DNA of 38,383 bases, taken from Micavibrio sp. Its GTDB lineage: Bacteria; Pseudomonadota; Alphaproteobacteria; UBA9219. A model generated the notes under the pieces. The model saw only the letters and a program-made list of their open reading frames with translations. It was not told the DNA's origin and ran no database searches. The position numbers and the translations under genes are program-made. The stretch lies in NCBI GenBank assembly GCA_020718105.1, contig DYDA01000020.1:1-38383 (forward strand), written 5' to 3'. Positions 1 through 18,739 of this stretch are shown in pieces. The first letter of the stretch is position 1, and each line of letters opens with the position of its first letter.

Positions 1-34
1 CTAACCCCTAACCCCTAACCCCTAACCCCTAACC
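1..34. repeat. Right-hand heptad array of a truncated element
   Basis: The window opens inside perfect copies of the 7-base unit CTAACCC. They end at a run of seven T and then AAAGGAG, the ribosome binding site of the first gene. By comparison with the four complete copies downstream, this is the right arm of a heptad-flanked element whose core and left arm lie before position 1. Confidence 0.85.
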
Positions 35-55
35 TTTTTTTAAAGGAGAAAACGA

Positions 56-679
56 ATGTCATTTGATGAAGTCAGGTTGCCGCTGCGTGTGCGTTATGGC
101 GCGAGCGGCGGGCCGCAATTTTTAACGGACGTTGTGACCACGCAAAGCGGTCATGAGCGTCGCAATCAATGCTGGGCGCAGGCGCGAAGGCGCTTTGATG
201 CGCGATCTGGCGTGGTGACGGCGGCGGATGCTTCGCTGCTGGCTGCGTTTTTTCAGGCTAGGGCGGGGCGGGCACGCGGCTTTTGCCTGAAGGACTGGAG
301 CGATTTTACCTCAGCGTTAGATGGCGTGAGTGCGCCTGCGTTCAGCGATCAATCTATCGGTACAGGCGATGGGACGCGCACGCAATTTCAGTTGGTCAAA
401 AACTATGGCAGCGGCGGCGTGATCCATGCGCGGGAGATTAGAAAGCCGGTCGAGGGCAGCGTTGTCGTCGGCGTGGACGGCGTTTTGTACGCAAGCGGGT
501 GGAGCGTGGACAACACGGGCGTGATCACGTTTGCGCAGGCGCCTGCCAATGGCGCGGTGATCACGGCGGGCTTCGCTTTTGATGTGCCGGTGCGTTTCGA
601 TACGGACAGGCTGACGCTTAGCCATGAGGACCAAAAACTGGCGCAGGTCGAGATTCCTTTGATTGAAGTGAGGGTGTGA
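56..679 (+). CDS. DUF2460 tail protein, GTA gp12-like
   Basis: 207 residues. The N-terminal half (SFDEVRLP, then a GGPQF segment and a stretch ending in GFCLKDWSDF near residue 83) is typical of the DUF2460/TIGR02217 family. This is one of the small distal tail proteins of Rhodobacter-type gene transfer agents and related siphophages. AAGGAG lies seven bases before the ATG. The TGA stop shares its last base with the ATG of the DUF2163 gene, so the two are probably translationally coupled. The order DUF2460-DUF2163-NlpC/P60-giant tail protein is the classical GTA g12-g15 order. Family assignment is from recognised sequence; the exact role in the tail is taken from the family. Confidence 0.88.
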   Translation: MSFDEVRLPLRVRYGASGGPQFLTDVVTTQSGHERRNQCWAQARRRFDARSGVVTAADASLLAAFFQARAGRARGFCLKDWSDFTSALDGVSAPAFSDQSIGTGDGTRTQFQLVKNYGSGGVIHAREIRKPVEGSVVVGVDGVLYASGWSVDNTGVITFAQAPANGAVITAGFAFDVPVRFDTDRLTLSHEDQKLAQVEIPLIEVRV

Positions 680-1521
680 TGAAAGAGATAGACGCGGCGT
701 TGACCGCTCATTTGGCGGGTGCGCTGACGACGCTCGCCACGCTTGTCAAAATCACGCGGCGTGATGGCGGTATCGTCGCGTTCACCGATCATGACGACGA
801 TGTGAGCATGGACGGCGTGACGTACAAAGCCGATGGCTCCTTTTCCGCAAACGCTTTGACTCAGCAGGCGAACATGAAGGTCAAGGATTTCGATATCGTC
901 GGGCTTTTGGACAGCGCGTTGATCGGCGAGGATGATATGAAGGCCGGTCTTTTTGATCATGCTCGCATTGATGTTTTTATCGTTAACTGGGCGGATGCCT
1001 CGCAAGGCGCGGTGCAGGTACGGCGCGGCTGGCTGGGTGAGGTTGCGATGCGTGGCGGGCAGTATGTGGCCAGCCTACGCGGCCTGCACGATTTGCTGAC
1101 GCGGCGTGTGGGTGAGACGTTTACGCCCGAATGCCGCTTTGATTGCGGCGACGTCCGGTGCGGCGTGAACCTTGTCGCGTTGACCGTCAGCGGCGTGGTC
1201 TCTAGCGTGATTGATGCGCGCACCTTTACGGATGTGACGCGTGGCGAGGAGTCAGCGTATTTTCAGGACGCGACGCTCACGTGGACCAGCGGCGATAACG
1301 CAGGCGCAAGCGTTGAGGTGGCCGCATGGGATGGGGACTCGCGGACGTTCACGCTGTGGTTGCCGATGCCTGCGCCGATGAAAGTTGGCGATGCGTATCA
1401 GGTCGCGGCGGGCTGCGACAAGCGCTATGCGACGTGCCGCACACGGTTTGGCAATGGCGTGAACTATGGCGGGTTTCCCTCTTTGCCCGGCGTGGGCAAG
1501 GTGTTGGATTATCCGGAATGA
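679..1521 (+). CDS. DUF2163 tail protein, GTA gp13-like
   Basis: 280 residues from the ATG at 679; a GTG one codon earlier is a less likely start. The N-terminal part (TLATLVKITRRDGGIVAFTDHDDD) and the cysteine-containing C-terminal part (FTPECRFDCGDVRCGVNL near residues 150-167, and a later CDKRYATCRTRF segment) are characteristic of DUF2163/phage_BR0599. In this family the C-terminal region carries clustered cysteines, often taken as an iron-sulphur or metal site. In the Rhodobacter GTA the equivalent is a hub protein at the baseplate. It overlaps the upstream gene by one base and ends about 10 bases before the NlpC/P60 gene. Confidence 0.88.
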   Translation: MKEIDAALTAHLAGALTTLATLVKITRRDGGIVAFTDHDDDVSMDGVTYKADGSFSANALTQQANMKVKDFDIVGLLDSALIGEDDMKAGLFDHARIDVFIVNWADASQGAVQVRRGWLGEVAMRGGQYVASLRGLHDLLTRRVGETFTPECRFDCGDVRCGVNLVALTVSGVVSSVIDARTFTDVTRGEESAYFQDATLTWTSGDNAGASVEVAAWDGDSRTFTLWLPMPAPMKVGDAYQVAAGCDKRYATCRTRFGNGVNYGGFPSLPGVGKVLDYPE

Positions 1522-1531
1522 GGAGGCATGG

Positions 1532-1933
1532 ATGACGCAGATTGAAACAATGATTGCGGCGGCGCGGGCGTGCGCGGGCACGCCGTTTCACCATCAGGGG
1601 CGCGTTGCGGGCGTTGGACTGGATTGCATTGGCCTCATTGTCGTGGCGATGCAGGCGGCGGGTCTGCCTGTGCGTGACCGCCTTGATTACGGGCGCAGAC
1701 CCGATGGCGCATCGCTGGTCGCGGCGTTGGAAGATCATGGGATGAAGCGCGTTACAGGAGAGATTAAGGCAGGCGATGTGCTTCTGTTTCGCTATGACCA
1801 TCAGCCGCAGCATGTCGCGTTGGCAACCAGCGCGGACACAATGATTCATGCTTTTGCGGTGGCAGGGCGCGTGGTGGAGACAGGCATCGGCGCGTATTGG
1901 CGGCGGCGATTGGTGGGGGTTTATAGGGACTAG
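1532..1933 (+). CDS. NlpC/P60 family tail peptidase, GTA gp14-like
   Basis: 133 residues. The start at 1532 is chosen because AGGAGG lies just upstream; the frame stays open to 1466 but that part overlaps the DUF2163 gene. The NlpC/P60 catalytic cysteine is in GLDCIGLI and the histidine in QPQHVAL, with the acidic DVLLF strand between them. Family members cleave peptidoglycan stem peptides and in phages sit at the tail tip to open the wall during DNA entry. The TAG stop at 1931 is also the first TAG of a TAGRGGT heptad array, so the repeat element begins exactly at the end of this gene. Confidence 0.9.
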   Translation: MTQIETMIAAARACAGTPFHHQGRVAGVGLDCIGLIVVAMQAAGLPVRDRLDYGRRPDGASLVAALEDHGMKRVTGEIKAGDVLLFRYDHQPQHVALATSADTMIHAFAVAGRVVETGIGAYWRRRLVGVYRD

Positions 1934-2240
1934 GGGTTAGAGGTTAGAGGTTAGGGGTTAGAGGTTAGGGGTTAGGGGTTAGGGGGGATTGCGTCACCAT
2001 CATTCCTTTTCCGTCATCGCGAGGAGCCTTGAAAAGGCGACGTGGCGATCCAGCTGCGAGCGATAGCGAGCGCATGAGTCAAAAAAACGAAGTGCACGCG
2101 TTGTTGATCTTTTTTCCTCACACGCCGCGCAGACGCGCGGCGCTGGATCCCCGCCTTCGCGGGGATGACGAAACCCTAACCTCTAACCCCTAACCTCTAA
2201 CCCCTAACCTCTAACCTCTAACCTCTAACCTCTAACCCCT
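1931..2240. repeat. Heptad-flanked REP element B (between gp14- and gp15-like genes)
   Basis: The left arm at 1931-1986 is eight consecutive 7-base units TAGRGGT (R is A or G), beginning at the upstream stop codon. The core at about 1987-2172 starts with GGATTGCGTCACC and holds REP-like palindromes. The right arm at 2174-2236 is nine units of YCCTAAC type, the reverse complement of the left arm, followed by CCCCTATTTTAAAAGGAG. The 328 bases between the genes contain nothing else that I can recognise. The left-end sequence recurs in elements D and E, showing that they are copies of one family in the same orientation. Confidence 0.88.
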
Positions 2241-2261
2241 ATTTTAAAAGGAGAGAGAAAA

Positions 2262-5200
2262 ATGGCTTCGATTATTTTATCCAGCGTTGCGTCTTCGGTT
2301 GGCAATGCGATTGTGCCCGGCGTGGGCGGGCGGCTTTTAAGCTCGCTGGCGCGCAAAGTCGGCGGCGCGATTGACGACGAGATCGGGTGGAGCAACCGCG
2401 CGGCGGTTAAGGACGGCGCGAGGCTTGAGAATTTCAAGGTGCAGGACTCGCGCTATGGTATCGCGATCCCTGTTGCGTATGGATGCGTGCGCGTGGCGGG
2501 CAATGTCATTTGGGTCTCGGACTTGATCGAGACGGCGCACGAAAGCAGCGTGTCGGGCGGCAAGGGCGGCGTGATCAGCGGCGCGTTCAGCGCAACACGC
2601 ACGACGTACACTTATTCGATCAACGTCGCGATTGCGATTGCGGCGGGCGAGATCGGCGGCCTTCAAACCATTTGGGCGGATAGCAAGGTGATTTACGAAG
2701 GCGGCGTGTGGAAAAGCGGCGTTTGCGGCAGCGCGAGTTTTCACGGCGGCGCGGCGGATCAGGCCGTTGATCCTTTGTTGGAAGGCTGGATCGGCGCGGG
2801 GTTGACTCCTGCTTATCGCGGCGTGGCTTATTTGGTGATCGAGGGCTTACAGTTGAAAGGGTTTGGCAATCGTTTGCCCAACCTGACGTTTGAGGTTCTG
2901 CCCAAGGACACGCAGGAGACTCCCGCTTTTCTGGGCGAGATGAACCCGCAAACGATGCACGGGATTGTTGCCAGCAAGCAGGGCGCTATGCCGCCGCTTG
3001 TTGTTGATGGTGGCGCGACCAGCGCAAGGCGTATGTTGATCGGCGGTTATGCGTGCGATGGGTTTCAGGCCTATATGGAGGTGATCGAGGTTGACGTGAC
3101 GGGCGATGCGCCTGTGGAAGCAGCGCGGACGGTGAGCTCTCTTTTCGCCAGCGAAGAAGTCGCGGCGCAGACGTGGGCGATGGCCCCCGATAACCGGATG
3201 GTGGCCATCGGGTTTCAAGACAGCGCGGGCGGCAATCCTTTTCGCGTGAGGTTGTACGATAGCGCCACGCGCCGCTTTGGCAGCGTGTTGACGCTCGGCA
3301 TGGAGGCCGTTGAAGAAAGGCCTTCCCTTTGGCTGGATGCGCATCATCTGGCCGTGATGGAGCAGCGTGACGGCAAGCGCGGCGTGCGCGTTCTGCTGCG
3401 TAGTGGCCTTGATTGTGTGGATTTGGGATTCTTTGACGTGTGGGGCGCGGGCAGCGCCCTAACGCGCGTGCCTGTTTTTTCTACGGCGTTTAAGGCGCTG
3501 GGCAGCGGCGCGATGATGATGATGGCCGATCACGCGCCGACCTTCACTGCGTTTTATGGGCGTTTTTTATCGTGGGTTGATAACGCGCTTGTCGTTGGCG
3601 AAGAAATAACGATTGCCAGCGGCCTTGATGTTGGATCGGGTAGCGGGATGCAGGTGCGCGTGCTGCCCTGTGGGCAGGACGAGTGGGCCTTGCTGTACCT
3701 GACCGCGATGGATATGCGGATGATGAGCTTTACGCCCGCGCCTGATAGCGTTGTCCTCACGCGCCCGTGGCAGGTGATCACCAGCGCCGCGATGGGAACG
3801 GTAGCGTGTCATGCGCCGATAGCGCTTGGCGATAGACTTGCGATTTTGCATCGTCCTGCGCTGGAGAATGCCTATCGGTTGAGTGAGATCACCTTGGGCG
3901 ATGGCGCGTTTACGCTGACGCGTGATGCGGCGTTGGTGGAGGACGTGGCTGCGCCTTCCTTTGCGTTCGATGCGGTGACGGTTTCCGCGTCGCGGTTTTT
4001 GGTCTCAGGCAATGTCGGCTATGATGGAACGCTGGGCAGTCTTGCGCTTATGAAGCGGCGCAGTCTTGGCGCGGCGCTGGATTCCATCGTGGAATCCATT
4101 TTGGCGCGGGCGGGCTATGACAGCGGCGACGTGGACGTCAGCGCTTTGGCAGGCACGGTGATCGATGGCTATGTCCTGTCCGATCAGGCCAGCGCGGCGG
4201 GCGCTTTGGCGCCGCTGCAAATTGTTGAGCCTTTTGATTTGGTTGAGCGCGGCGGTCAGTTGGTTGCCGTCTTGCAAGGCGCGGGCGCGGTGATCAGTGT
4301 GGACGAGGATGAGTTGAGCTCTCCCGACTCTGCCTTGCCCTCCTTGGCACAAGAGCGCGGGCAAGAGTTGGACTTGCCGATTGAAGTAACGTGCAATTAT
4401 CACGATGCCTCACGCGATTATGAGGTTGGCAGCCAGCGTGCGCGGCGCAGCGTAACGCGCGGCGCTCGCGCCGTGGCATCGGTTGATGTGCCGCTGGTTT
4501 GCACGGCCACGGCGGCCAAGCAAATCGCGGCGCGGCTTTTGTACAGCGCATGGGTGGAGCGGAACCGCTTTCGCTTTTTCCTCTCGCGCCAAGGGCTGGC
4601 CATTGAGCCAAGCGATATTGTGGAGGTGGGCGGCGTTCGCGTGCGCATCATGCGCGTGGTTGCCTCGCAAGGTGGGTTGCTGCAATTCGATGGCGTGGCC
4701 GCGATCCCCGATCATTTTGGGCAAACGGCGCAAGCCGATGGCGGGCAGGCTGGCGCGGCGGTGGCCGTCAGCGCGGTTGCCAGCGTCTTGCACGTCATGG
4801 ATTTGCCTTTGCTTCGCGCTGCCGATGATCAGCCGGGCGTTTATGTCGCCGTCAGCGGCCTTGCCGGATGGCGCGGCGCAAGCCTGTGGCGCAGTGAGGA
4901 TCAAGTGACCTTTTCACGCGTCACGACGCTGACGGACGCCGCGATCATGGGCGTTGCGGTGACGGCTTTGCCTGCGCGGAGCATGTCCGTTATGGATCGC
5001 GCCAGCACGCTGCGCGTTCAGCTGCTGCGCGGCAATTTAAGTTCTTGCAGCGAGGCGGAGTTATTAAACGGCGCGAACGTCGCTTTGATCGGCGCGGAGA
5101 TCGTTCAGTTTCAAACCGCGACGTTGATGGAGGAAGGCTTGTACGAGTTGAGCGGTTTCTTGCGGGGACGGCGCGGGACAGAGGCCACCGCGCATCAGGT

Positions 5201-5681
5201 TGGTGAGGCTTTTGTCATGTTGCAAGAAGGGACGGTACACTTTCTGCCCGTTCCGTTAAGCGAGCGCGGCAAGGTCGTGCATTTCCGCGCCGTATCGGAT
5301 GGCGGATCTTTGGCACTCGCGCAGGATATCCCGTTCGCCTATGGCATGAAAACGCTTGCGCCCTTTGCGCCCGCGCATGTGAAGAGTGTGAGGGCGGGAG
5401 GCGCAGGCAGCGACGTGACGTTGTCGTGGGTGCGCTGCGCGCGCAAAAACGCGGCGTGGGTGGATTATATCGATGTGCCTTTGGATGAAAGCGAGGAACG
5501 CTATGTCGTCGAAGTGATGAATGGCGCGGCGGTGGTTCGGTTCTTTGATGTCGTGGGCGCTTCGTCGGTTGTTTATACGGCGGCGATGCAAACGGCGGAT
5601 TGGGGCGGCAGCATGCCTGCGTTGTTTGATGTGCGCGTCGCGCAGGTCAGCGCAACGTATGGGCTAGGGGCTAGAGGTTAG
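2262..5681 (+). CDS. Giant phage/GTA tail-tip host-specificity protein, gp15-like
   Basis: 1139 residues. The start is supported by AAAAGGAGAGAG before the ATG. The N-terminal region (residues about 45-140: an RYGIAIPVAYG segment, VIWVSDLIE, SINVAIAIAAGEI) is typical of tail-tip proteins that follow NlpC/P60 in GTA clusters. The region around residues 610-800 (ARAGYDSGDVDV, then YVLSDQASAAGALAPL) resembles the Phage-tail_3 family, and FLRGRRGTEAT near residue 970 is a common C-terminal signature. Rhodobacter gp15 is longer and has a TIM-barrel-like domain; I do not recognise that barrel here. Residues about 235-600 instead read as successive beta-strands. The last residues (GLGARG) and the stop are encoded by heptad repeats of the following element. 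Confidence 0.88.
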   Translation: MASIILSSVASSVGNAIVPGVGGRLLSSLARKVGGAIDDEIGWSNRAAVKDGARLENFKVQDSRYGIAIPVAYGCVRVAGNVIWVSDLIETAHESSVSGGKGGVISGAFSATRTTYTYSINVAIAIAAGEIGGLQTIWADSKVIYEGGVWKSGVCGSASFHGGAADQAVDPLLEGWIGAGLTPAYRGVAYLVIEGLQLKGFGNRLPNLTFEVLPKDTQETPAFLGEMNPQTMHGIVASKQGAMPPLVVDGGATSARRMLIGGYACDGFQAYMEVIEVDVTGDAPVEAARTVSSLFASEEVAAQTWAMAPDNRMVAIGFQDSAGGNPFRVRLYDSATRRFGSVLTLGMEAVEERPSLWLDAHHLAVMEQRDGKRGVRVLLRSGLDCVDLGFFDVWGAGSALTRVPVFSTAFKALGSGAMMMMADHAPTFTAFYGRFLSWVDNALVVGEEITIASGLDVGSGSGMQVRVLPCGQDEWALLYLTAMDMRMMSFTPAPDSVVLTRPWQVITSAAMGTVACHAPIALGDRLAILHRPALENAYRLSEITLGDGAFTLTRDAALVEDVAAPSFAFDAVTVSASRFLVSGNVGYDGTLGSLALMKRRSLGAALDSIVESILARAGYDSGDVDVSALAGTVIDGYVLSDQASAAGALAPLQIVEPFDLVERGGQLVAVLQGAGAVISVDEDELSSPDSALPSLAQERGQELDLPIEVTCNYHDASRDYEVGSQRARRSVTRGARAVASVDVPLVCTATAAKQIAARLLYSAWVERNRFRFFLSRQGLAIEPSDIVEVGGVRVRIMRVVASQGGLLQFDGVAAIPDHFGQTAQADGGQAGAAVAVSAVASVLHVMDLPLLRAADDQPGVYVAVSGLAGWRGASLWRSEDQVTFSRVTTLTDAAIMGVAVTALPARSMSVMDRASTLRVQLLRGNLSSCSEAELLNGANVALIGAEIVQFQTATLMEEGLYELSGFLRGRRGTEATAHQVGEAFVMLQEGTVHFLPVPLSERGKVVHFRAVSDGGSLALAQDIPFAYGMKTLAPFAPAHVKSVRAGGAGSDVTLSWVRCARKNAAWVDYIDVPLDESEERYVVEVMNGAAVVRFFDVVGASSVVYTAAMQTADWGGSMPALFDVRVAQVSATYGLGARG

Positions 5682-5909
5682 GGGTTAGAGGTTAGAGGGT
5701 ATTGTGGCGCGGTTTTCCCTTTACCGTCATCGCGAGGGAGCGCAGCGACCGTGGCGATCCAGCTGCGAGCGATAGCGAGCGCATGAGTCTTATGCCGCGT
5801 GGACACGCGGCGCTGGATTGCCGCGCTCCTTGCAGTCGCTCGCAATGACGGGGGGAGTGAGAGTCTCTGAACTCTGACCCCTGAACTCTGAACTCTGAAC
5901 TCTAACCCC
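5665..5909. repeat. Heptad-flanked REP element C (after gp15-like gene)
   Basis: The left arm at 5665-5699 is five 7-base units (TAGGGGC, TAGAGGT, TAGGGGT, TAGAGGT, TAGAGGG). The first two lie inside the upstream reading frame and the third supplies its stop. The core shares with elements B and E a near-identical segment beginning GATCCAGCTGCGAGCG (5756-5789 here). The right arm at 5864-5909 is a variant heptad array with units like ACTCTGA, ending TAACCCC before TTTTTTAAAC. Confidence 0.85.
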
Positions 5910-5938
5910 TTTTTTAAACAACCATAATGGAGAAAAAC

Positions 5939-6280
5939 ATGACAACACCGAATTTGGAAATGCCGTATTTGGTCGCCTCGCAGGCGCAGAAGGAAATCAC
6001 ACATAATGAGGCGATCAGCGATTTGGACGTGATGGCTCAGCTGTCGGTTATCAGCCGCGTGATTAATGCGCCGCCCGCTTCGCCCGCCGATGGCGCGGCC
6101 TATATCGTCGGGACTTCGCCCACAGGCGCGTGGGAAGGCAAGGTGGGGCAGGTCGCTTTTTATTTTTCAGGCTGGCGATTCAAAACGCCCAAGGCCGGAT
6201 GGCTCGCCTTCTCGCAGGCCGATGGAAAGTTTTATGCCTATAACGGCAGCGTGTGGGCTTTGTTAGGGGGGTATGTGTGA
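5939..6280 (+). CDS. DUF2793 domain protein
   Basis: 113 residues. The start at 5939 is preferred because TGGAG lies six bases upstream; an in-frame ATG at 5927 has no such site. The segment LEMPYLVASQAQKEITHNEA and the closing FYAYNGSVWALLG are hallmarks of DUF2793, a small domain found next to or fused with tail-tip proteins of GTA-like elements in alphaproteobacteria. Its biochemical role is unknown; a tail-fibre or receptor-contact role is inferred from position only. The TGA stop shares one base with the ATG of the next gene. Confidence 0.85.
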   Translation: MTTPNLEMPYLVASQAQKEITHNEAISDLDVMAQLSVISRVINAPPASPADGAAYIVGTSPTGAWEGKVGQVAFYFSGWRFKTPKAGWLAFSQADGKFYAYNGSVWALLGGYV

Positions 6281-6555
6281 TGAAGATGGAAGTGCATGAC
6301 GGCCTCATTCGCGGCTTGCCTTTGGCGGTGTTGATGATGATTTTGGTGCAAGGCTCTGGCGCAATTTGGTGGGTGTCGGCGCAGGCGAGGGATAAGGCCT
6401 TTTTGGAGCAACGCGTTGAGAAGCTGGAAAGCGGGGCGGCCAAAGCTGACGATACGTCGGGCGCGGTTTTGCAACGCCTCGCACGGATCGAAGAGCGTGT
6501 TGCCGCCCAGAATGTCCTGTTGGAGCGCATCGAGAAAAGGATCGGGGAGAAGTAG
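6280..6555 (+). CDS. Single-pass membrane protein with coiled coil, possible lysis accessory
   Basis: 91 residues from the ATG at 6280, which overlaps the upstream stop by one base; the frame extends to 6253. One hydrophobic segment at about residues 10-30 (LPLAVLMMILVQGSGAIWWV) is followed by a charged heptad-like region rich in E, K, R and L, likely a coiled coil. The topology, size and position just before lysozyme and holin would fit an inner-membrane spanin-like or other lysis accessory protein. There is no family match that I recognise, so this is inference from layout. The TAG stop is the first unit of the next heptad array. Confidence 0.6.
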   Translation: MKMEVHDGLIRGLPLAVLMMILVQGSGAIWWVSAQARDKAFLEQRVEKLESGAAKADDTSGAVLQRLARIEERVAAQNVLLERIEKRIGEK

Positions 6556-6813
6556 GGGCAGGGGTTAGGGGTTAGGGGTTAGAGGTTAGGGGTTAGGGGT
6601 TAGGGGTTAGGGGGGATTGCGTCACCATCATTCCTTTAGCGTCATCCCCGCGAAAGCGGGGATCCCGTTTGTTTTGATTCATTATCCCTCAACCCCATCG
6701 CTGTTCGTTATTCTTTGCAAAAAAAAGAAAACGGGATCCCCGCTTTCGCGGGGATGACGATAGGGGGAGAGCCCCTAACCTCTAACCTCTGCCCTCTGAA
6801 CTCTGATCCCTAT
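6553..6813. repeat. Heptad-flanked REP element D (before lysozyme)
   Basis: The left arm at 6553-6615 is nine TAGRGGT-type units beginning at the upstream TAG stop; the second unit has lost one base. The core begins ATTGCGTCACCATC as in element B. It contains a perfect 31-base inverted repeat, 6640-6670 against 6729-6759, each arm itself a GC-rich palindrome with CCCCGCGAAAGCGGGG. The right arm at 6772-6813 is a degenerate CTAACCT/CTCTGAA heptad array ending CCCTA before the lysozyme ribosome binding site. Confidence 0.87.
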
Positions 6814-6840
6814 TGAACATCATTTTTATAAGGAGCTATT

Positions 6841-7326
6841 ATGGAAGGTCTTGGAGAAACCGGCGAAACGCTGGGCGCTATGCCATGGCTGGCGCGGCGC
6901 GTGAATAACGCGGGACTTGCGCTTATCAAGGAACATGAAGGCTTGCGGTTGACGGCCTATCGCTGCCCCAAGGGCGTGTGGACAATCGGCTATGGCCACA
7001 CGCGCACAACCTATCCGACGATGACGATTGATGAAGCCGAAGCGAACCGTCTTTTGTCGGAGGATTTGAACGTGTTTGAGCGCGCCGTCTCGCGCCTTGT
7101 GAAAGTGCCGCTGGAGGATAACGAGTTTGCCGCGTTGGTGAGCTTTGTCTTTAACGTCGGCGTCGCCGCGTTTGATGCCTCAACGCTTCTCAAGTTGCTC
7201 AATCGTGGATGGTACGAACAAGTTCCCGCGCAGTTGATGCGTTGGGTTCATGTACAGGGTGAAGCCTTGGGCGGCCTGACACGCCGCCGCGCCGCCGAAG
7301 GCGCGTTGTGGCGGAGGAGGGGTTAG
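6841..7326 (+). CDS. GH24 (T4/P1-type) endolysin
   Basis: 161 residues with AAGGAG upstream. Residues about 28-60 hold the GH24 lysozyme signature: catalytic Glu in EHEGLRL, then YRCPKGVWTIGYGHT. The spacing is Glu-8 residues-Cys-5 residues-Thr, the catalytic-triad spacing of T4-type lysozymes, with Cys in the place of Asp20, as in some phage R21/P1-like endolysins. It cleaves the glycan strands of peptidoglycan to release particles. No signal peptide or N-terminal anchor is visible, so export would need the holin encoded downstream. The C-terminal RRRG and the TAG stop run into the next heptad array, so the exact C-terminus may have been altered by the repeat. Confidence 0.92.
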   Translation: MEGLGETGETLGAMPWLARRVNNAGLALIKEHEGLRLTAYRCPKGVWTIGYGHTRTTYPTMTIDEAEANRLLSEDLNVFERAVSRLVKVPLEDNEFAALVSFVFNVGVAAFDASTLLKLLNRGWYEQVPAQLMRWVHVQGEALGGLTRRRAAEGALWRRRG

Positions 7327-7576
7327 AGGTTAGGGGTTAGAGGTTAGGGGGGATTGCGTCCCCATCATTTCTTTAGCGTCATCCCCGTTCTATCCTCCTA
7401 TCGTCATCCCCGCGAAAGCGGGTATCCAGCTGCGAGCGATAGCGAGCGCATGAGTCTTATGCGCGGCAGACGCAGCGCAGCTGGATTGCCGCGCTCCTTG
7501 CAGTCGCTCGCAATGACGGGGGAGGGCGAGTCCCTAACCTCTAACCTCTAACCCCTAACCCCTGAACCCTAGTCCC
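7324..7576. repeat. Heptad-flanked REP element E (lysozyme-holin junction)
   Basis: The left arm at 7324-7351 is four units (TAGAGGT, TAGGGGT, TAGAGGT, TAGGGGG) starting on the lysozyme stop. The core begins ATTGCGTCCCCATC and contains the CGTCATCCCCG palindrome motif and the GATCCAGCTGCGAGCG-type segment shared with B and C (7423-7456). The right arm at 7531-7576 (CTAACCT, CTAACCC, then a degenerate CTGAACCCTAGTCCC) ends at TTTTTT before the holin ribosome binding site. Confidence 0.87.
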
Positions 7577-7600
7577 TTTTTTAACAAACGGAGGTATGCA

Positions 7601-8011
7601 ATGTGGCAAGCTTTAATAACACCGATTTTTTCTTTGCTGGATAAAGTGATCCCCGATGAAAAGGCGCGTGAGGCCGCCAAGCTGCAGTTGATGCAGCATG
7701 AAGGGCAGCAGGCTTTGCAGGAAATCCAAGCGCAGCTCTCGCCCATTTTGGCCGAGGCGCAAAGCGCCGACCCGTGGACAAGCCGCGCTAGGCCTTCGTT
7801 CATGTATGTGATTTATGTTTTGCTGTTGGCCTCTCTGCCGATGGGCGTGCTGTTTGCGTTTGAGCCTGACGTTGCTAAAAACGTGACCGAGGGTTTCAGG
7901 GCGTGGCTTGCCGCGCTGCCAGAGCCGATCATCAATCTGTTTGGTATGGGCTATTTGGGCTATACAGGCGCCAGAAGCTTTGAAAAGTGGAAGGGGCATG
8001 GGAAGAAGTAG
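7601..8011 (+). CDS. Holin of the 3TM GTA-release family
   Basis: 136 residues, with ACGGAGG eight bases before the ATG. After an amphipathic N-terminal half rich in Q, E and A come hydrophobic stretches at about residues 67-86 and 105-123, then a basic C-terminus (KWKGHGKK). The PWTSRARPSFMYV segment before the first clear membrane span is typical of the 3TM holin family (PF11351), which works with an endolysin to release gene transfer agents or phages. The gene lies next to the lysozyme, giving a compact lysis cassette. Its TAG stop is followed by GGGT, i.e. a single heptad unit TAGGGGT (8009-8015) without an array. Confidence 0.82.
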   Translation: MWQALITPIFSLLDKVIPDEKAREAAKLQLMQHEGQQALQEIQAQLSPILAEAQSADPWTSRARPSFMYVIYVLLLASLPMGVLFAFEPDVAKNVTEGFRAWLAALPEPIINLFGMGYLGYTGARSFEKWKGHGKK

Positions 8012-8052
8012 GGGTAATTTTTTGATTCTCAATTTGTGGTTAATGCTTTAGG

Positions 8053-9150
8053 ATGCGAGAATCGAGAGAGTCTTTCCTTTCCTTTTTAACCGCTGTTTCT
8101 TTTGCCATGGGCAATCCTTTTACGAAAATTGTTGAAAATCCCGCGCTTCAAGCGCGGGTGCTTCGTCTTCGCCTTTTTCTCGTTGGGCTTGCCCGCGACT
8201 ATTGGAAGGATGCGCCGCTTAACGCCAGCCCGACGTTTCAACGGTTTTTGTCGTTGATGGGCAAGATGAGCCGCGCCCAAAAGACTGGTGCGGCGCAACC
8301 TTCCGCGCCTGCGTCTGAGGTTAAGGAAAAGACTTTGTCTGCGTCTTCTGTTCATGCGCAAGAGGGGGGGGCTTCAGAAAAAGAAGAAACGCGCGTTTGG
8401 ACAGCGGACCGCATTCAAGTGATGGAAGTGATGTGGGGCGCGGGAAGCTCTTTTCCCGGAGGGGAGGCTTATATCGATTCCTTGACGTCTCCTTTGGGGC
8501 TGAATGAGGAGGTAAGCGTTTTGGATTTGGGCGCTGGCCTTGGCGATATGGCGCGTAAGCTGGCCGAGGATTACAAGTGCTATGTCACGGGGCTGGAGAT
8601 GGATCAGACCCTTGCAACACGCGGGATGGTGATGTCAATTGCTGCCGCTAAAGGCAAGAAAGCACCCATCACCGTTTATGATCCGGCTGAATACAATGCC
8701 ACGCGTAAATATGATTGTATTATAGCGCGGGAAGTTTTTTGCCGTGTTGTAGGAAAAGAAAAGTTTTTCAAGGCGGTGGATTCCAGTTTAAAAAATGGCG
8801 GCGGGCAGATTGTTTTTACCGAGCTTGTAATGGCCCCTTCAGTGAGAGAGAAGCCTGCCATCAGAAAATGGTTGGAGCGTGAGAAGTCGATGGTTCCGTT
8901 AACGCAGATTGAACTTATCAAGACGTGGAAGGGCATGGGGTATGATTTGCGCATTGCCGAGGATCAAACGACGCTTTATAAAAATCATATTTTGACAGGC
9001 CTCGTGTCGTTGGTTTCCCATATGAAAACCAACGTGCCCGATAAGGACACTAAGCGCCTTGTGGTCAGGGAGGTCGATTTTTGGTCTCGCCGTCTTGCCG
9101 CTTTTGGACAAGGCCTTAAATACTATCGGTTTTATGGTCTTAAATATTAA
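8053..9150 (+). CDS. Class I SAM-dependent methyltransferase
   Basis: 365 residues from an ATG at 8053; a second in-frame ATG at 8107 (MGNPFTK) is possible, and neither has a clear ribosome binding site. Residues about 155-180 (VSVLDLGAGLGDMARKLAE, then TGLEMD) form motif I and the acidic loop of a Rossmann-type methyltransferase. CIIAREVFCRV and VFTELVMAP follow as motifs II-III. The first ~150 residues are unlike the catalytic domain and contain a low-complexity linker rich in S, A, E and K. The substrate cannot be read from sequence. It lies between the lysis genes and the hopanoid genes, with no clear sign of belonging to either. Confidence 0.75.
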   Translation: MRESRESFLSFLTAVSFAMGNPFTKIVENPALQARVLRLRLFLVGLARDYWKDAPLNASPTFQRFLSLMGKMSRAQKTGAAQPSAPASEVKEKTLSASSVHAQEGGASEKEETRVWTADRIQVMEVMWGAGSSFPGGEAYIDSLTSPLGLNEEVSVLDLGAGLGDMARKLAEDYKCYVTGLEMDQTLATRGMVMSIAAAKGKKAPITVYDPAEYNATRKYDCIIAREVFCRVVGKEKFFKAVDSSLKNGGGQIVFTELVMAPSVREKPAIRKWLEREKSMVPLTQIELIKTWKGMGYDLRIAEDQTTLYKNHILTGLVSLVSHMKTNVPDKDTKRLVVREVDFWSRRLAAFGQGLKYYRFYGLKY

Positions 9151-16849: not shown

Positions 16850-17725
16850 ATGAAGTCAAAAACGGATGAAAAAAAAGTGATCGCAAAACAAAAACGCATC
16901 GGTCTTTTGGGCGGCTCTTTCAACCCCGCGCATGAGGGGCATGTGGCGATGAGTCTCTTTGCGCTTGCGCGTCTTAAACTGGATGAAGTTTGGTGGGTGG
17001 TGTCACCGTTAAATCCCTTGAAAACACGGGATGAAATGATGCCTTATGCTATGCGCATAAGGGGCGCGCGCAAGCTTGCTTTGCCCCATACAAAGATTGT
17101 TGTGACGGACATCGAAAAACGTCTTGGCACACGCTACACCATCGACACTTTACGCGCGTTGAAACGTCGTGCGCCGATGAAAAAATTTGTCTGGTTGATG
17201 GGCGAAGACAACTTCAAAACGATTTCTTTGTGGAAGTCATGGCAACAGATTTTCCTTGAGCTACCGGTTGCTGTTTTTCGCCGATCGGAGTATTCTGATT
17301 CGAACGTAAGGGGTGACGCTCATGCAGTCTTTGCAAAAGAGCAGTTGCCTTTAGCGTTGGCCGAGGATCTGGCCGAGGCCAATACGCCCGCTTGGGTGCT
17401 GTTGGACAATACAGTGAATCCCTTGTCTGCGACGCAGATAAGACAACGAAGTAAGGTCGCTTCAAAATCTAACCCATCCAATGAAGGAGTACTAGAAATG
17501 GTAGTCAAGAAACCAGCCGTTAAGAAGGCCGTTGCCAAGAAACCAGCCGCGAAGAAGGTCGTTAAGAAGACCGTCGCCAAGAAGCCAGCTGCTAAGAAGC
17601 CAGCCGCGAAGAAGGTCGTTAAGAAGACCGTCGCCAAGAAACCAGCTGCTAAGAAGGTCGTTAAGAAGACCGTTGCGAAGAAACCAGCCGCTAAGAAGGT
17701 TGTGAAGAAGACAGTCAAGAAATAA
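16850..17725 (+). CDS. nadD: Nicotinate-nucleotide adenylyltransferase with lysine-rich C-terminal tail
   Basis: 291 residues. Residues about 17-210 are NadD: nucleotide-binding GGSFNPAHEGH at 21-31, then VWWVVSPLNPLK, FVWLMGEDNF and the closing NPLSATQIRQRS, which is the ISSTxIR-type motif. The enzyme adenylates nicotinate mononucleotide in NAD synthesis. No stop follows the catalytic domain. The frame continues through SNPSNEGVLE into about 75 residues of KKPAAKKVVKKTVA repeats like bacterial histone-H1 tails. A separate start for that tail is visible at 17498 (see nested entry), so NadD may be a true fusion, the tail may be made separately, or both. A terminator follows at 17742. Typical NadD is near 200-220 residues. 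Confidence 0.9.
   Translation: MKSKTDEKKVIAKQKRIGLLGGSFNPAHEGHVAMSLFALARLKLDEVWWVVSPLNPLKTRDEMMPYAMRIRGARKLALPHTKIVVTDIEKRLGTRYTIDTLRALKRRAPMKKFVWLMGEDNFKTISLWKSWQQIFLELPVAVFRRSEYSDSNVRGDAHAVFAKEQLPLALAEDLAEANTPAWVLLDNTVNPLSATQIRQRSKVASKSNPSNEGVLEMVVKKPAVKKAVAKKPAAKKVVKKTVAKKPAAKKPAAKKVVKKTVAKKPAAKKVVKKTVAKKPAAKKVVKKTVKK
17498..17725 (+). CDS. Histone-H1-like lysine-rich protein, possible internal start in nadD frame
   Basis: A 75-residue product (MVVKKPAVKKAVAKK...) would start at an ATG in the same frame as nadD. AAGGAG at 17484-17489 lies eight bases upstream, an ideal ribosome binding site, and the sequence before it reads like an untranslated leader. The protein is almost only K, A, V, P and T in 14-residue repeats. 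Such proteins bind DNA or RNA non-specifically and compact nucleoids in several bacteria. Whether it is made alone, only as the NadD tail, or both, is unresolved by sequence. Confidence 0.55.
   Translation: MVVKKPAVKKAVAKKPAAKKVVKKTVAKKPAAKKPAAKKVVKKTVAKKPAAKKVVKKTVAKKPAAKKVVKKTVKK
17533..17718 (+). repeat. 42-bp tandem repeats encoding VAKKPAAKKVVKKT
   Basis: About four copies of a 42-base unit encode a 14-residue motif; one copy has an extra KKPAA. Copies differ mostly by synonymous changes such as GTC/GTT and GCC/GCT, so the repeat expanded and then drifted. Confidence 0.8.
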
Positions 17726-17741
17726 GCTTGAGTGACTTTTT

Positions 17742-17775
17742 ATGCCCCATCCGCCTTGCGGGTGGGGCATTTTTA
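17742..17775 (+). terminator. Factor-independent terminator after nadD/H1-like gene
   Basis: The stem ATGCCCCATCCGC pairs with GCGGGTGGGGCAT across a CTT loop (one G-U pair) and is followed by TTTTTA. It separates the nadD tail gene from the rsfS transcript, so rsfS is likely to have its own promoter in the 45 bases before its start. Confidence 0.88.
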
Positions 17776-17818
17776 TTGCATGATGATCGCATAATAAATA
17801 GCAATTGGAGATTTACTG

Positions 17819-18739
17819 ATGGTCGTTAAGAAAAAAGTTGCCCCTTCTAAAAAAGTCGTGGCCAAGAAGACTCCCGTGAAAAAGGTTGCGGTGAAGAAGG
17901 TTGTGGCCAAGAAGGCTCCCGTGAAAAAGGTTGAGGTGAAGAAGGTTGTGGCCAAGAAGGCTCCCGTGAAAAAGGTTGCGGTGAAGAAGGTTGTGGCCAA
18001 GAAGGCTCCTGTGAAAAAGGTTGCCGTGAAGAAGGTCGTGGCCAAGAAGGCTCCCGTGAAAAAGGTTGTGGTGAAGAAGGTTGTGGTCAAGAAGGCTCCC
18101 GTGAAAAAGGTTGCGGTGAAGAAGGTTGTGGCCAAGAAGGTTGCCGTGAAGAAGGTTGCCGTGAAAAAGGTTGTGGCCAAGAAGGCTCCTGTGAAAAAGG
18201 TTGCCGTGAAAAAGGTTGTGGCCAAGAAGGTTGCCGTGAAGAAGGTCGTGGCCAAGAAGGCTCCCGCGAAAAAAGTTGCGGTGAAGAAGGTTTTGGTCAA
18301 GAAGGTTGCCCCTAAGAAAGCACCTGCGAAAAAGGCGGTTCTTTCTGTGGAGGCTTCAGTAAAGCCTGTGGTTTCTGAAATCCAAGAGCCCCTTGGCCTT
18401 CCTGAGCAGATGCGGGATGCCGCGTTGCGTGTTTTGGATGAGCGGCAGGCCGAAGATGTGATGGCGGTGGATGTGCGAGGCCGTAGCGCCATCGCGGATC
18501 ATGTCATTATTGCGTCTGGCCGTTCAGCGCGTCAGTTGGCGGCGATGGCTGAGTATATAAGAGAGGCGTTCTTTAAATTGGGTGTTAAGGGAATGCGCGT
18601 TGAAGGGTTGCCTCAAGGCGATTGGGTCTTGATCGATGCGGGTGACATTATTATTCATTTGTTCCGCCCCGAAGTGCGCGCCTACTATCACATTGAAACC
18701 ATTTGGTCGGCGACAACGCCTGTCGAAACAGGGGCATGA
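17819..18739 (+). CDS. rsfS: Ribosome silencing factor RsfS with lysine-rich N-terminal extension
   Basis: 306 residues; TTGGAG lies nine bases before the ATG. Residues 1 to about 175 are H1-like repeats built from VKKVAVKKVVAKKAP. Residues about 195-300 are RsfS/Iojap: ALRVLDERQAEDVMAVDVRG, DHVIIASGRSARQLAAMAEY, EGLPQGDWVLIDAGDIIIHLF, and RPEVRAYYHIETIW. RsfS binds ribosomal protein L14 and blocks joining of subunits when nutrients are short. Family members are normally about 105-140 residues, so the extension more than doubles the size. An internal ATG at 18410 starts right at the domain but has no clear ribosome binding site. The stop overlaps the rlmH start (ATGA). Confidence 0.9.
   Translation: MVVKKKVAPSKKVVAKKTPVKKVAVKKVVAKKAPVKKVEVKKVVAKKAPVKKVAVKKVVAKKAPVKKVAVKKVVAKKAPVKKVVVKKVVVKKAPVKKVAVKKVVAKKVAVKKVAVKKVVAKKAPVKKVAVKKVVAKKVAVKKVVAKKAPAKKVAVKKVLVKKVAPKKAPAKKAVLSVEASVKPVVSEIQEPLGLPEQMRDAALRVLDERQAEDVMAVDVRGRSAIADHVIIASGRSARQLAAMAEYIREAFFKLGVKGMRVEGLPQGDWVLIDAGDIIIHLFRPEVRAYYHIETIWSATTPVETGA
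17866..18315 (+). repeat. 45-bp tandem repeats encoding VKKVAVKKVVAKKAP
   Basis: Around ten full or partial copies of a 15-codon unit, several nearly identical at DNA level. They should be prone to slippage and copy-number change between strains. The complementary strand has an open frame across them (Thr/Phe-rich) that is a by-product of the repeat. Confidence 0.85.

Follow-up and report, generated by a model that had tools for sequence, protein, structure and literature searches.

Intergenic palindromes of seven-base repeats in a gene transfer agent cluster of Micavibrio sp., with different repeat units in sister species

Short repeats with a period of seven bases have been reported from several bacterial groups. 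Rehm et al. 2015 (PMC4692102) described G-rich heptamer repeats with the unit GGGAATC in Xanthomonas and GGGGAYT in Nostoc, and MacGregor 2015 (PMC4679880) described TAACTGA direct repeats in Beggiatoaceae, some Cyanobacteria and Bacteroidetes. The heptanucleotide elements GGGACCG and MTYCTGA of Geobacter metallireducens were interpreted as regulator sites or RNA elements (PMC2700814). Repetitive extragenic palindromes (REPs) tagged with CGTC were characterized by Di Nocera et al. 2013 (PMC3733652), and for Halothiobacillus and Anabaena REP dimers have been reported within longer palindromes. Here, we analysed a stretch of 38,383 nucleotides from Micavibrio sp. (contig DYDA01000020.1 of assembly GCA_020718105.1), hereafter designated as the window, in which tandem heptads form convergent inverted pairs at the junctions of a gene transfer agent (GTA) cluster. 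These palindromes have a common architecture, a fixed polarity, a period restricted to seven and units typical of the species, and several orthologous junctions in related species carry a different unit.

Different heptads at orthologous junctions

The genome of the window (G000) was compared with relatives numbered G001, G002, G005 and so on, among which G002 and G005 are the sister species. G000 and most relatives are draft genomes of many contigs, in which misassembly of repeats is possible, and genome-wide statements on G000 are based on pattern searches and a sample of 386 kb. Because the gene order of the cluster is kept in the relatives, its junctions are directly comparable. Between the tail protein gene and the DUF2793 gene, a REP dimer is enclosed by TAGRGGT arms in G000 and by GCATTTR arms in G002. 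In G005 (88% protein identity), (GCATTTA)4 arms enclose a short loop, and heptads are absent from this junction in G001. Upstream of the tail gene, contig C224 of G005 jumps to sequence matching the portal region of G000 contig C7 (L078:10090-11075), and this match makes C224 appear rearranged or chimeric there.

GCATTTR palindromes also occupy, in G002, the junctions c|d, f|g and g|h and the position upstream of gene a, all differing from G000, as well as junctions between head genes. The arms of G005 at f|g and g|h are of the TAGGGGTCAGG type as in G000, so the unit is switched junction by junction. Switches occur outside the cluster too, with flanks that can be aligned on both sides: beside groEL, AGAGTTC in G000 is replaced by GCATTTA in G005, and further cases separate G000 from G002 (L041/L152) and G000 from G001 (L136/L159). 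Genome counts follow the same partition, a 20-base TAGRGGT pattern being matched 39 times in G000, never in G002 and once in G005, and a 20-base GCATTTR pattern once, 21 and 16 times, respectively. At several junctions, the palindrome therefore persists with its heptad replaced, so that shape rather than sequence is kept.

The trait is patchy within the family, since no intergenic period-7 array was found in samples of several relatives (G003, G006, G009, G010 and G012), nor in 400 kb of G016, although two arrays are known there. Another relative, G007, uses (AATGTAG)n and (CTACATT)n as its two arms. Among sites with a single arm in G000, the one at dnaE has a short, degenerate version in G001; at dnaE and hpnN no such site was found in G002, G003 and G004, and G005 gave no match.

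Switching bears directly on the proposal made for the Xanthomonas and Nostoc heptamers, namely that the G-rich strand folds into G-quadruplexes. The regular G tracts of GGGG units such as those in TAGGGGT arrays, together with a placement and polarity like those in PMC4692102, would agree with it, but GCATTTR, AGAGTTC and AATGTAG occupy similar sites, sometimes the very same junction, without any G tract, and many TAGRGGT units contain GAGG, in which the tract is broken. As a general account, G-quadruplex formation is inconsistent with GCATTTR and largely refuted, and we give it very little credence.

Period, frame and polarity of the units

De novo detection in the 386 kb of G000 returned intergenic tandem arrays with periods of 7 and 14, other periods being almost absent. 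In the direction from gene edge to spacer, the units usually have the frame YYRG+NNN, with YYRG mainly TTAG, TCAG, CTAG or TTGG. G000 mostly combines TTAG or TCAG with RGG (GGG or AGG) or AGT, and G005 and G002 combine TTAG or TTGG with CAT. Oriented from the nearer gene edge, this frame, which was read from the very data it describes, holds for 27 of 31 arrays in G000, 15 of 17 in G005 (with one tie) and 11 of 15 in G002. A single array on contig C19 passes through the intermediates TTAGGGG, TTAGAGG, TTAGAGT and TCAGAGT; because they hold such intermediate units, mixed arrays are more indicative of gradual change than of unrelated elements. Two dialects can also stand at one junction, as on contig C26 (G000:C26:24691-24860, L042), where a TAGRGGT left arm is followed by a complete GCATTTA...TAAATGC palindrome. 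Arms at the same locus in G000 share triplets more often than permuted pairs do (P=0.034; 9 pairs, an arm being common to two of them).

A scan of GTDB genomes for GGTTAGRGGTTAGRGGTTAGRGG matched at least 119 stretches, in which genes were called mechanically as open reading frames (ORFs). The matches listed came from Cyanobacteria, Bacteroidota, Planctomycetota, Chloroflexota, Acidobacteria, desulfobacteria, Clostridia and others, and the counts for TTAGRGG arrays given next apply to those matches. None of 113 TTAGRGG arrays at the fetched loci was internal to an ORF. Of the arrays at most 50 bp from a gene edge, 57 pointed outward and 12 inward (P=4e-8), and a partner array was convergent in 29 of 87 cases and divergent in 1 of 87, against 4 of 87 in shuffled sequence. 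A near-perfect TTAGAGG array of more than 30 units was observed in the complete genome of Mucilaginibacter sp. SMC90 (L222:6376-6594). A rule by which the purine-rich strand of all heptads would be oriented alike across phyla was unsupported (29 versus 21, P=0.32); polarity belongs to each unit. One could imagine that bacteria of many phyla share a process by which convergent period-7 palindromes arise at the edges of genes. Four bases of the unit would be mostly constant (YYRG in this genus), and the other three would be exchangeable and sweep through the genome, the junction palindrome persisting while it is rewritten. We consider a generalization of this breadth doubtful.

Plain microsatellite growth at random intergenic sites, without any structure, would be consistent with tandem seven-base units of variable copy number found across the genome without a fixed core. 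The preliminary description of the window had taken heptad arrays at many loci with no fixed core as the mark of such growth. Arrays of this kind do exist, but growth alone would predict neither polarity at gene edges, nor partners that are convergent and not divergent, nor the reuse of a junction with another unit. Since the polarity, the convergence of partners and the conservation of sites all depart strongly from randomness, microsatellite growth is very improbable as the whole explanation.

Palindromes of the tail/lysis cluster

In the window, period-7 arrays were located by direct reading of positions 1-8400 and with Tandem Repeats Finder. The cluster genes resemble those of RcGTA and comprise DUF2460, a baseplate hub, NlpC/P60, an Rcc01698-like tail protein, DUF2793, a lysozyme and a GTA holin. 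Convergent inverted arrays were found at 1931-2241, 5665-5909, 6553-6812 and 7318-7577, with a right half at 1-34, so that every open junction of the cluster is occupied by an element with the sole exception of 8012-8052. A pattern of heptads, spacer and GTCATCGCGAG matched 6 times in the window and 0.00 times in 100 shuffles.

The cut element is represented in the window by its right array, (CTAACCC)n at 1-34, and its left array and interior are found at one end of contig C7 (C7:1-281, reversed), a contig with genes for terminase, portal, prohead protease, capsid and connector. Contig C7 (reversed) and the window contig (C10) are very probably neighbours, because the two genes that would flank the element are adjacent in G001. 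The second element opens with (TAGRGGT)8 at 1931-1985, and the first TAG of this array terminates the NlpC/P60 gene at 1933; the interior of the element (1986-2171) consists of the leader GGATTGCGTCACCATCATTCC and a REP dimer with the CGTC and CCA hallmarks of PMC3733652, and its right array, (CCYCTAA)10 at 2172-2241, ends 21 bases upstream of the ATG at 2262. An inverted repeat comparison of 1931-1985 with 2187-2241 gave 96% complementarity. The third element has a left array of (CTAGRGG/TTAGRGG)5 from 5665 to 5698-5700, within which the 1139-aa tail protein has its stop codon (5679-5681), a different leader and a CGTC-tagged REP dimer (5729-5850) in the interior 5701-5864, and a right array at 5865-5909 mostly of CTCTGAA/CCCTGAC units, a heptad unlike that of the left arm. 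In the fourth, (TAGRGGT)8 at 6553-6613 starts with the TAG (6553-6555) that ends a 91-aa gene, the interior (6614-6771) holds the shared leader and a long REP palindrome (6640-6760), and the right array at 6772-6812 is degenerate, with CCTCTAA and CTCTGAA units. The last begins with (TAGRGGT)4-5 at 7318-7350, including the stop codon of the lysozyme gene (7324-7326), and continues with the shared leader and REP palindromes from 7351 to about 7530; its right array, from about 7529 to 7577, passes from CCTCTAA/CCCCTAA to CCCTGAA and CCCTAGT, and is followed by TTTTTT and the ATG of the holin gene at 7601.

All four upstream genes in the window terminate on a TAG within an array. Compared with relatives that have no array, both the tail protein and the lysozyme terminate early, and their ends differ among G000, G005 and G002. 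Upstream genes thus receive their stop codon from the array, and proteins are shortened.

The preliminary description had recognized REP palindromes flanked by inverted heptad arrays at almost all open junctions, four complete and one as a right half, and had rightly judged them unlike an ordinary transposon end. Its view of a family of REP elements sharing one core did not survive comparison. The leader GGGRTTGCGTCMCCATCATT has three sites in the whole of G000, all in this cluster, and is present in three of the four window elements, 5665-5909 having another; inner REPs and palindromes vary between loci, and a fixed-core element family was rejected, with a leader common to three copies only. 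The REP interiors (2012-2170, 5729-5850 and 6640-6760) carry CGTC at their outer ends, have CCA-type tails and form dimers with the tags outside. Outside the window, G000 heptads flank other palindromes (C12, C32) or no REP (C16), or form a single arm. The interior is thus exchangeable (CGTC-type REP dimer, other palindrome or short loop), the constant part being the inverted pair of period-7 arrays, which nearly always have one and the same reading direction from gene edge to spacer. Heptad palindrome and REP are separable, since there are arms without REPs, REPs without arms, and differing interiors. Restriction of TAGRGGT-type arrays to the tail/lysis cluster, stated earlier for the window, is correct there and does not extend to the genome, where more than ten further loci were found, several of them one-armed or without a REP. 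The two arms of an element may use different heptads, as at 5665-5909. The suggested search for a REP-associated transposase gave no match to PF01797 (Y1/REP-associated transposase) in G000, which is 96% complete, nor was a Y1 gene found in G002; spread driven by a REP-associated tyrosine transposase (RAYT) was rejected for G000, where no RAYT gene was found.

These results also concern the possibility that non-autonomous transposons, similar to miniature inverted-repeat transposable elements, have the arrays as their terminal inverted repeats, with each dialect representing one family mobilized by a transposase in trans. Palindromic ends of fixed polarity, a single dialect at many sites of one genome, the leader common to three cluster copies, a 205-base stretch shared by C7 and C20 that includes an array edge and is 94% identical, and the empty junctions of G001 would all fit. 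But interiors are not conserved, one-armed copies are common, and dialects grade into one another inside single arrays. Visual comparison of c|d with the empty G001 site, in sequences that have diverged, showed no target duplication, and no Y1 transposase, the sole transposase family searched, was found in G000. Mobile elements of this type are therefore, in our opinion, a rather improbable source.

Alternatively, selection might act on RNA hairpins serving as intrinsic terminators, attenuators or protectors of mRNA 3' ends that set relative expression in the cluster, with pairing conserved and sequence drifting. Folding predicted strong outer stems in all dialects tested, T-runs directly follow several right arms in the window, and sister species occupy the same junctions. 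Period-7 arrays are also enriched in the GTA cluster, where they occupy 7 of 14 gaps as opposed to 7 of 177 (4%) sampled elsewhere (P=6e-6). However, in G001 and in more distant relatives the junctions between the same genes are short or empty, which makes the palindrome dispensable in G001, and T-runs are present in G001 without any heptad palindrome. In addition, the arms of 5665-5909 pair only partly, and many sites are one-armed, with no T-run at those upstream of an ATG. Rfam returned only matches below the gathering score in 1-8400. An effect of long hairpins between cistrons on expression is possible, but RNA selection as the reason for these structures seems unlikely to us.

Two side observations concern neighbouring sequences. 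Between GTA head genes on C7, two ORFs on the minus strand (L037:3059-3799 and L037:6532-7224) have about 95 N-terminal residues in common and unrelated C-termini, each being followed by a small ORF; they include a DNA repeat of 332 bases that is 98% identical, have no Pfam match and look like exchangeable cassettes. Farther along the window, two neighbouring ORFs, one of them nicotinate nucleotide adenylyltransferase-like, have histone-H1-like tails formed by long tandem repeats rich in lysine, alanine and valine (17507-18318).

Origin of the palindromes and comparison with described repeats

The explanation that we favour, with a probability of about 0.55, is that intergenic heptad palindromes are arrays grown by slippage and kept complementary by hairpin template switching. 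Arrays would lengthen and become homogeneous through replication slippage in spacers prone to form hairpins, and template switching across a single-strand hairpin would keep the two arms roughly complementary; such switching is documented for inverted repeats in PMC8794818 and PMC8604942. Units would change gradually by way of intermediate spellings and would reach other sites by copying from locus to locus, while REP dimers would enter or leave the loop independently of the arms. Gene ends may tolerate the arrays because several units carry stop codons in every frame, and transcription would produce long hairpins between cistrons.

Several points weigh against this slippage and template-switching model. 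The arms of 5665-5909 are unlike (left TAGRGGT, right mostly TTCAGAG), and the C7/C10 element has TAGAGGT on the left only and CCCCTAA on the right only. Arm coupling was not clear in G005 (P=0.14), and the coupling test is a weak one. The model also leaves the spread of one unit through a genome unexplained. Slippage alone does not account for the period of seven, for which an idea based on the polymerase footprint is cited in PMC4692102.

The earlier statement that no described bacterial element has this structure was too strong, given the convergent heptamer pairs of Xanthomonas (PMC4692102) and the REP dimers nested in palindromes (PMC3733652). As in Xanthomonas and Nostoc, the window arrays are tandem seven-base units, mainly intergenic, that overlap stop codons and occur at the same gene pairs in related species; there, the G-rich strand also points away from the gene edge into the spacer, in sense orientation after stops and antisense before starts, and convergent inverted pairs number 70-75 cases in Xanthomonas. 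In contrast to GGGNATC and GGGGAYT, the units are TAGRGGT, TTCAGAG and GCATTTR, need not be G-rich and differ between sister species at one junction; moreover, loops often contain CGTC REP dimers, and the arrays are concentrated in the GTA cluster. The TAACTGA repeats (PMC4679880) share heptamer arrays directly before start codons, a fixed orientation and stops in all frames, and TAACTGA read outward is TCAG+TTA, compatible with YYRG+NNN. Unlike the present arrays, they are almost always direct (one inverted repeat was reported), with no REP and no unit switching reported. Four or five tandem heptamers are likewise dispersed in the genome of Geobacter metallireducens (PMC2700814), where MTYCTGA fits outward TCAG+NNN, but no switching between species was reported.

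The interiors resemble CGTC-tagged REPs (PMC3733652) in their CGTC start, CCA-type tails, dimers with the tags outside and lack of a dedicated transposase, although the enclosing palindromes reported there are not heptad arrays. With REP doublets forming hairpins (REPINs) and their RAYTs, as described in PMC3116915 and PMC2817692, they share short palindromic repeats dispersed between genes, and differ in that no RAYT gene was found in G000, the arms are heptads and the interior is exchangeable. A partial coverage of the literature, which is weak evidence, returned no heptad replacement at orthologous junctions, no YYRG+NNN frame, no CGTC REP dimers in heptad palindromes and no concentration in GTA clusters. 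We regard as new the switching of heptads at orthologous junctions, the REP dimers inside heptad palindromes and the enrichment in the GTA cluster. Arrays that edit gene ends matter for annotation, and contigs that break in arrays matter for assembly. Heptamer arrays have hitherto been studied genome by genome and sequence by sequence, as G-quadruplexes in Xanthomonas and as protein-binding sites in Beggiatoaceae. Sister species that keep the palindrome and change the word speak against the generality of either reading, and they open to test both the choice of a seven-base period and the way in which dispersed repeats are kept similar in one genome.

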